64,000 nucleotides of DNA from positions 1 through 64,000 of the forward strand of contig MVBO01000047.1 in assembly GCA_002261195.1 (NCBI GenBank). The letters run 5' to 3'. The DNA comes from Bifiguratus adelaidae. Taxonomy: Eukaryota > Mucoromycota > Endogonomycetes > Endogonales. Both the position numbers and the translations under genes were made by a program. This document shows, piece by piece, positions 1,129 to 5,285 of this stretch. The notes beneath the pieces were generated by a model that saw only the letters and a program-made list of their open reading frames with translations, was not told the DNA's origin and made no database searches. The stretch's first letter is position 1, and each line of letters opens with the position of its first letter.

Positions 1129-1769
1129 ATGAGATTCTCACTCGTGGCCCTGTCCCTTCTTTCTTCTTGCACGCTTATTCAGGCTCAGGGATGGACACTG
1201 GTCGAATCCTCTGCTCCTGTCCCTACTGCTTCCTCTTCCATGGACGGTAAGTGGGTTCACGACACGGAAGCAGACTCCTGACAGAGCTCAGCTGCACCCT
1301 CTACAGCCTCAGAGTACGTCAATTCCTGGAACGACCACAAACTGCTCTCTGCTCCAGAGCCAGCACAGAACGATAGCAACAACGAGACCTACGTGACCTT
1401 GCACGATCTGGACGCGGATCCTCATCCTGATTGGGCTGATCAATGGTCTCAATTCGATGCTGCGAATGGCAAGAACAGCAGTGATATGGACAAGGCGATC
1501 AAAGAGTTCCCCTCTGAGGTCAGCAAGTTGAAGCAAATGATGGCACAAGGCAGTGGTGCCGAAACCTTGAACCACGAATGGTGAGTGATCTTCTTGCGCA
1601 ATATATCGTCTCATGCCCTATTAGGTCATTGTTCATTCAACACTTGAGCTCAACTTATCCTTCCATCGCTTCCAAATTGTCTACTCTTGAAGATACCTCC
1701 AACCTCTCGACTCCCAGCCAATGGAGCAGTTTCCTAGACGCCCTTGAACACATTGTGGCAACACAATAA
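1129..1769 (+). CDS. Small secreted protein, unknown function
   Basis: Predicted exons are 1129-1246, 1307-1580 and 1625-1769 (537 nt, 178 aa); phases close. Introns use GTAAGT...ACAG and GTGAGT...TTAG. The N-terminus MRFSLVALSLL...IQAQG is a classic signal peptide with cleavage probably after QA. The mature part is acidic and Ser/Asn-rich without Cys-rich motifs, and ends in amphipathic helices (FIQHLSSTYPSIASKL, SSFLDALEHIV). A pyrimidine-rich CTCTCT tract lies just upstream of the ATG, typical of fungal promoters. Downstream of another secreted-protein gene on the same strand. No family recognised; an effector-like or cell-wall protein is only a guess. Confidence 0.7.
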
Positions 1770-1806
1770 ACCATTTGCATTTGTGTCTTTTTCCATCTAC
1801 ATAAAC

Positions 1807-4294
<2,488 letters not shown>

Positions 4295-4348
4295 GGCACG
4301 AGATAACGCAACCGTGGAATTTCCTTTTATGATGGCGCTCAGCACACC

Positions 4349-4417
4349 CAGCATTACAGTCGAGTGCAGAGCCATATAGAAGTTTCAACGCTACACTGTC
4401 ATCTAAAGGACATGCTG
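4349..4417 (-). promoter_or_regulatory. Candidate SECIS element in the 3' UTR of the SELENOU-like gene
   Basis: Read on the minus strand, a stem-loop has every part of a eukaryotic SECIS. Helix I pairs CAGCAT (4417-4412) with ATGCTG (4354-4349), 6 of 6. A 9/4-nt internal loop follows. The quartet is ATGA (4402-4399) opposite GA (4361-4360), giving tandem G.A/A.G. Helix II pairs 4397-4387 with 4373-4363; 10 of 11 positions pair (3 of them G.U). The unpaired AAA (4385-4383) sits on the 5' side of the apical loop, 13 nt after ATGA. It lies 120-190 nt downstream of the stop codon and ~650 nt from the TGA. The pairing was done by hand; no folding program was run. Confidence 0.8.
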
Positions 4418-4537
4418 ATACGCATCATTGTAAGATCGAGTTGGGCAAGAAACCTTTTTCTTCCACGAATGAGTTACAGGTGACTGGAAGCATGGAAACT
4501 TGGGATGAGATAATGATGTCCATGTCATGTTGATGGC

Positions 4538-5285
4538 TTACCTTGTGGATTGAGAGCCTTGATGCTGTTTAACGCCATCCTCCACTTGCTGCAGAGTCTC
4601 ATTGTCAGGATTTTGGACAGGACTAACCGCAAGAACTGCTTTCAAGACTTGAGGAATCGGAGCATAGTCTCCGAACACTTGTTCCTTGTATCCATAGACT
4701 GGATGTTCTGGTTCAGTCGAAGAGACAGCGGGTAGGATGTACATGCCACCCAAAATGCGACCTTCACCCTTGATGTTACCCTTGACACCTCGTTTGAGAT
4801 TTCTGCGAAGGTTGGACCAGAGCTTGGGCTTCAAGAAGGTGCTAGCTCCACCCCAGCGCAACTGACCATTTCCGAGAGCCTTATAAAACCCTCGATCCTC
4901 ATCCAACATCATTTCACCTTTCCAGAAACTCTGTTGAAACTCTTCTTGCCCAAGAGTTTCATGGATAATAGAAACCATTCTTGTCTGGAGTTTCTCTTGA
5001 ATAAGAGGACGCAGACCGGCGAGGATTTGAGCCTCCTCGCGACAGAACTGTCATCCGGGTCGCCGGGCTGAACAAGCATATGTCAATAAGCGAAGACACC
5101 AGCCAGAAAGCGTACGTACTGACGAGCACAAGACAAGGTTTATCTTTCCATAGTTCGTTGGCGGAGATGACTTGCCCAGTGGTTTGGCCACCTTGACCGA
5201 AAGGCTTTAAAGAGATGCTTTTGAGAGCACTATACAACATCGTCACCTTGGGCAGGTGAACGGCGTCCAGTGCTGCCGTGGCCAT
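4538..5285 (-). CDS. SELENOU: Selenoprotein U-like peroxiredoxin-like 2 protein (Sec at in-frame TGA)
   Basis: Two exons, 5120-5285 and 4538-5067 (696 nt, 231 residues counting Sec; FAM213A/PRXL2A is about the same length). Intron GTACGT...TTCAG. Spliced, the frame reads LVLVTRRPG-TGA-QFCREEAQ, with TGA at 5053-5051 as codon 61. Family knowledge: PRXL2/FAM213 proteins have RRPGCxxCREEA here, and fish SelU has selenocysteine in the first position, so this is a U-x-x-C redox motif. After the TGA the family signature continues for 170 residues, including GNIKGEGRILGG and VFGDY near the C-terminus, so the gene is not decayed. No splice choice removes the TGA while keeping phase: the CAG after TGA shifts the frame. 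A SECIS-like hairpin lies in the 3' UTR. Probable thioredoxin-fold redox protein; substrate unknown. Without Sec insertion only 60 residues would be made. Confidence 0.88.

Follow-up and report, generated by a model that had tools for sequence, protein, structure and literature searches.

The window, by which we mean the whole 64,000-nucleotide stretch of Bifiguratus adelaidae DNA analyzed here (contig C226 of an 18.63-Mb assembly of 286 contigs), carries on its minus strand a gene of the PRXL2 (SELENOU) family, for which two exons separated by a GT-AG intron were predicted. The coordinates of the gene, of its neighbor, and of the related features found elsewhere in the assembly are given in Table 1. 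The spliced gene reads ...NELWKDKPCLVLVTRRPG-TGA-QFCREEAQILAGLRPL..., i.e., LVLVTRRPG-TGA-QFCREEA around the TGA codon, and, should the mRNA be spliced as drawn, the frame past this codon stays open for about 170 codons until a TAA is reached. A previous reading of this DNA from its letters (the sequence-only reading) had proposed RRPG-TGA-QFCREEA in the spliced gene, and this was confirmed, with the TGA at positions 5053-5051 of the minus strand. A possible second intron was also noticed at the 3' end from the sequence only; its removal would change the C-terminus of the protein from ...STR to ...QSTSHL, with the stop codon at 4476-4474. This SHL ending would resemble the peroxisomal targeting signal PTS1.

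Table 1. Positions of the PRXL2 gene and associated features in the window, and of the TGA codons of two companion genes in other contigs
Feature	Position	Strand	Remarks
PRXL2/SELENOU exon 1	5120..5285	-	MATAALDAV...CLVLV and first base of the next codon; aligned with 10 relatives
Intron, 52 nt, GTACGT...TTCAG	5068..5119	-	Predicted from sequence
PRXL2/SELENOU exon 2	4538..5067	-	T-RRPG-U-QFCREEA...STR, TAA 4540-4538; PF13911 on the downstream part
In-frame TGA, proposed Sec codon of U-x-x-C	5051..5053	-	Cys column in 10/10 relatives
TGT, second Cys of the U-x-x-C motif	5042..5044	-	Invariant Cys in 11/11 alignment rows
Possible second intron, GTAAGC...TTCCAG, 58 nt	4484..4541	-	Read from sequence
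SECIS candidate	4322..4435	-	Long helix I, AUGA 4402-4399, helix II 4397-4363, 3' quartet CGAC 4362-4359
SECIS candidate, unpaired AAAC	4385-4382	-	After a further 13 nt
Snf1/AMPK-alpha-like kinase start codon, downstream neighbor	4292..4294	-	3' limit of the intergenic stretch
Selenophosphate synthetase TGA	L022:1427-1429 (C2:23726)		TGA at its own Sec site
GPX4-like TGA	C33:33110-33108 (L034/L036)	-	Codon starts directly after a 45-nt intron

The AhpC-TSA_2 domain (PF13911) was recognized in the gene with an E value of 1.3e-13 and 51.7 bits, above the gathering cut-off of 27, and an exon-by-exon search of the assembly, which could miss a broken-up copy, gave no second match to this domain. 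When 5.8 billion proteins were searched with a query that had Cys typed at the TGA, ten relatives were found, with identities of 39-48% over the matched part; nine of these are named proteins from Mortierellaceae-type and Dimargaritales-type fungi. The alignment of the 11 proteins contained 25 invariant columns, including RRPG and FCREE, and all ten relatives had Cys in the TGA column. The in-frame TGA was aligned with the Cys of the homologs and flanked by conserved residues on both sides, as in a selenoprotein gene. The proposal that both flanks and some 170 downstream residues are conserved was borne out by this alignment. The redox motif [CU]-x-x-C was found as RRPG-TGA-QFC in our gene and as RRPGC[QP]FC in the ten relatives, and the nearest solved structures were those of prostamide/prostaglandin F synthase, with an alignment that spans this motif. 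Fish selenoprotein U is the selenocysteine (Sec) form.

The assembly contained tRNA-Sec, PSTK, SepSecS, SPS, eEFSec, and an SBP2-like protein. A lack of such machinery was the main condition under which the sequence-only reading would have fallen, and the search for these genes did not refute it. The tRNA-Sec scored 67.1 bits, where the cut-off is 47, and the anticodon UCA was read from the alignment; the same model passed its cut-off in five of 14 control genomes. SepSecS was represented by four exon matches on contig C31, with an E value of 1.3e-108 to solved SepSecS. The joined exon pieces of PSTK, on C146, gave an E value of 3.7e-25 to the eukaryotic PSTK family and had L-seryl-tRNA(Sec) kinases as best solved matches; the pieces stayed under the curated whole-protein cut-off and also passed that of the Pfam family KTI12, a relative of PSTK. 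The matches to the SelB and SelD families, like those to PSTK, fell under curated cut-offs, and this was expected because they involve exon pieces or bacterial models. The eEFSec gene on C249 showed an E value of 3e-63 to solved eEFSec, with the domains euk_SelB_III and eEFSec_4th over their cut-offs, and it encodes the B. adelaidae protein BZG36_03023 (P0013), of which 549/549 residues map exactly. Among the 22 TIGR00475 matches, those ruled out as eEFSec candidates were, by labels assigned by eye, IF2-like (L007), eRF3 (L008), eIF2-gamma (L009), mitochondrial EF-Tu (L010), Hbs1-like (L011), and a GTPBP-like GTPase (L020); matches L012-L014 lay outside this separate look, and the true eEFSec gene was the one on C249. 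Proteins annotated as eEFSec-like were also seen in Endogone sp. FLAS-F59071, Jimgerdemannia flammicorona, and Polychytrium aggregatum (P0014, P0015, and P0119), pointing to possible further Sec-using fungi.

The RNA-binding domain of the SBP2-like protein, on C233, had an E value of 6.3e-13 to solved SBP2. It was observed that this L7Ae domain shares one open frame with ankyrin repeats (L031, match at 43107 of C233, positions 1580-3019 of the locus), with E values of 5.3e-27 for Ank_2 and 1.3e-5 for L7Ae. For the two homologs found (P0011 and P0012), the L7Ae domain alone was listed, and a literature search for a paper joining SECIS binding protein, ankyrin, and fungi found none. No paper came up either when the literature was searched for fungal selenoproteins together with SECIS.

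Two other genes of the assembly carried a TGA at a Sec site. The spliced SPS gene on C2 reads LKG-TGA-GCKVPQAELLKML, i.e., LKG-U-GCKVPQ, and in the alignment with the solved selenide, water dikinase 1, the TGA falls on the Thr of LKGTGCKVPQ. The GPX4-like gene on C33 reads NVASK, the 45-nt intron, and TGA-GLTPLNYKQ (NVASK-U-GLT); among solved chains, its product matched a designed protein best, with an E value of 4.1e-53, and a phospholipid hydroperoxide glutathione peroxidase was matched at 4.8e-47. Other candidates were discarded as TGA genes: the second GPX gene (C228) encodes Cys, with the codon split as TG|C, Rdx (C273) reads CTGC and is a Cys form, and both MsrA genes read GCFW. Among the 11 TIGR01438 matches, the three that were looked at had no Sec motif at their ends. 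Each of the three TGA genes had a predicted intron less than 15 nt away from its Sec codon, lying 14 nt before it in PRXL2, directly before it in GPX, and 10 nt after it in SPS.

Between the PRXL2 stop codon and the start codon of the neighboring kinase, we found a SECIS candidate with AUGA, AA, and NGAN elements and helices I and II, of which helix II had ten pairs, and 27 pairs were counted outside the core (helix I and extensions). It was first seen by eye, and a scan with a SECIS-like rule was performed afterwards. The scan gave 29 sites in the window (128 kb of strand, both strands included), and the candidate ranked ninth among them by helix II energy alone and first by the energy of helices I and II, the helix I term having been added after the candidate was seen. 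In 536,798 bases of strand from other loci, overlaps not removed from this count of bases, 89 sites were found, and four of these were better than that of PRXL2. Taken at face value, arithmetic from these counts gives about 0.002 expected sites as good as the PRXL2 candidate per 243-nt stretch, a figure that flatters it because the score was fixed with the candidate already known. Folded without constraints, 4435-4322 reached a minimum energy of -35.9 kcal/mol, compared with -31.6 kcal/mol for the SECIS fold, and the two folds differ in the core. No Rfam model matched a SECIS in any of the three elements, i.e., those of PRXL2, SPS, and GPX.

A core of the form AUGAC-N12-AAA was present 3' of the stop codon in the three TGA genes. 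In the window, this pattern occurred five times per 128 kb of strand, the PRXL2 site included, which corresponds to about 0.01 expected in 260 nt. In SPS, AUGAC-N12-AAAC begins 26 nt past the stop codon and forms a ten-pair stem. In GPX, which was recognized as a TGA gene after the core had already been fixed as a search pattern, AUGAC-N12-AAA begins about 77 nt past the stop codon; its stem is weak, and no site of the GPX 3' region passed the SECIS stem rule, even with looser limits. The base following the GPX core also differs (AAAU), and the site was thus outside the ATGACN12AAAC search, which relies on AAAC. This search gave 179 sites in the genome, compared with 161 for the reversed control, and so no clear enrichment in bulk; of the 50 of the 179 sites that were examined, three had a SECIS-like stem, with ten pairs in the SPS site only. 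We consider it probable that 4435-4322 is the SECIS element of PRXL2. Since the candidate ends 28 nt before the kinase start codon, the 3' UTR would have to reach nearly that far.

Recoding would be superfluous if splicing took out the TGA. Here the sequence-only reading, which held that every splice alternative skipping the TGA breaks phase, was mistaken: of the single-intron GT-AG choices in the tested stretch, 72 gave an open frame lacking the TGA, five of them with the exon start at 5047. The choice closest to a normal product joins the donor at 5123 to this exon start (...CLVL-FCREEA). However, RRPG, identical in the 11 aligned proteins, was kept in none of the 72, and for this reason such products are unlikely to be a working PRXL2 protein. 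By general splicing rules, moreover, the TTCAG acceptor that ends at 5068, being nearer, would be expected to take precedence over the AG at 5049-5048, and the donor at 5119, GTACGT, fits the usual GTANGT better. Splicing that renders recoding needless is therefore very improbable.

If the true or ancestral codon were Cys, with the TGA due to an error of sequencing or to a nonsense mutation that arose recently, the gene would be either normal or a young pseudogene; this would fit with the Cys of the relatives and with the single base that separates TGA from TGT or TGC. Yet this explanation leaves unaccounted for two unrelated genes of the same genome with a TGA exactly at their Sec sites, the Sec machinery genes, the open and conserved remainder of the frame, and the SECIS candidate 3' of the gene, and we consider it very unlikely. 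The UGA could likewise work as a functional or leaky stop, with a short truncated product and read-through by a near-cognate tRNA instead of Sec insertion; the codons ahead of the UGA are open, and UGA followed by C is, in general, a weak stop context. Conservation nevertheless extends over the roughly 170 codons past the UGA, the residue replaced is the redox Cys, and the Sec genes are in place, so that this reading has next to no probability.

Recoding of the UGA as Sec is the explanation that we favor, and the stop codon in the PRXL2 redox gene of B. adelaidae is almost certainly read in this manner. The proposal of a fungal selenoprotein at the PRXL2 Sec position was supported by the Sec machinery, the two additional TGA genes, and the SECIS candidate. 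On sequence grounds, we are highly confident that the UGA at 5053-5051 would be decoded in the cell through eEFSec, Sec-tRNA(UCA), SBP2, and the SECIS candidate at 4435-4322. The steps, borrowed from the known eukaryotic pathway, would be as follows: PSTK would phosphorylate the Ser-tRNA-Sec, SepSecS would then convert the phosphorylated form using the selenophosphate made by SPS2, eEFSec would bring the resulting Sec-tRNA(UCA) to the UGA, and SBP2, bound to the SECIS in a 3' UTR extending to 4322, would recruit eEFSec and its Sec-tRNA(UCA). The product would have a U-x-x-C redox center where its relatives have C-x-x-C, and with such a center PRXL2 would most likely be a selenol-based thiol-disulfide or peroxide reductase. 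A more tentative idea, which we regard as rather doubtful, is that Bifiguratus has its own form of Sec insertion, with an SBP2 whose SECIS-binding domain continues unbroken into C-terminal ankyrin repeats and a SECIS core of fixed register (AUGAC-N12-AAA) that is common to the three TGA genes examined and has no Rfam match.

Fungi were long held to be devoid of Sec, and the few lineages that use it are informative about the timing and the cause of its loss in the kingdom. In five papers (PMC10386755, PMC12611240, PMC10778597, PMC7435645, and PMC8807479), the use of Sec in fungi is credited to Mariotti et al. 2019 (doi 10.1038/s41564-018-0354-9); two of them put the Sec-using early-branching fungi at nine species (PMC10778597 and PMC10386755), and in one, seven of these nine belong to Harpellales (PMC10386755). 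That fungal Sec is known only from a small number of early-branching species, as the sequence-only reading remarked, is in line with this literature. The B. adelaidae PRXL2 is thus almost certainly a real selenoprotein and not the first in fungi, since Sec in early-branching members of the kingdom was reported in 2019, and a genome-wide selenoprotein scan would be expected to find the SELENOU gene. Reportedly, B. adelaidae was among the nine Sec-using fungi of Mariotti et al. 2019, and their work is said to have left the fungal SECIS unsettled. What may be new is the description of the SECIS and the ankyrin-fused SBP2. The single spacing register over three TGA genes provides a testable fungal SECIS model, and the Sec form of PRXL2, set against Cys in the nearest relatives found, would allow a tractable comparison of Sec with Cys in a fungus whose genome is small.

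When compared with known systems, the gene showed a weak similarity to the NCBIfam family SelL_rel_redox (NF040769), with an E value of 1.7e-07 and 31.1 bits, far under the cut-off of 120 bits, and it was not counted as a member. With the selenoproteins that Mariotti et al. 2019 described in fungi, it would share the use of Sec in an early-branching fungus; most of those selenoproteins reportedly have no consensus SECIS elements, whereas the PRXL2 candidate has a type I layout. With SELENOU/PRXL2 (FAM213; PF13911), it has in common the same domain and the same position of the redox motif, but the ten closest proteins found have Cys there, and the codon of B. adelaidae is TGA.
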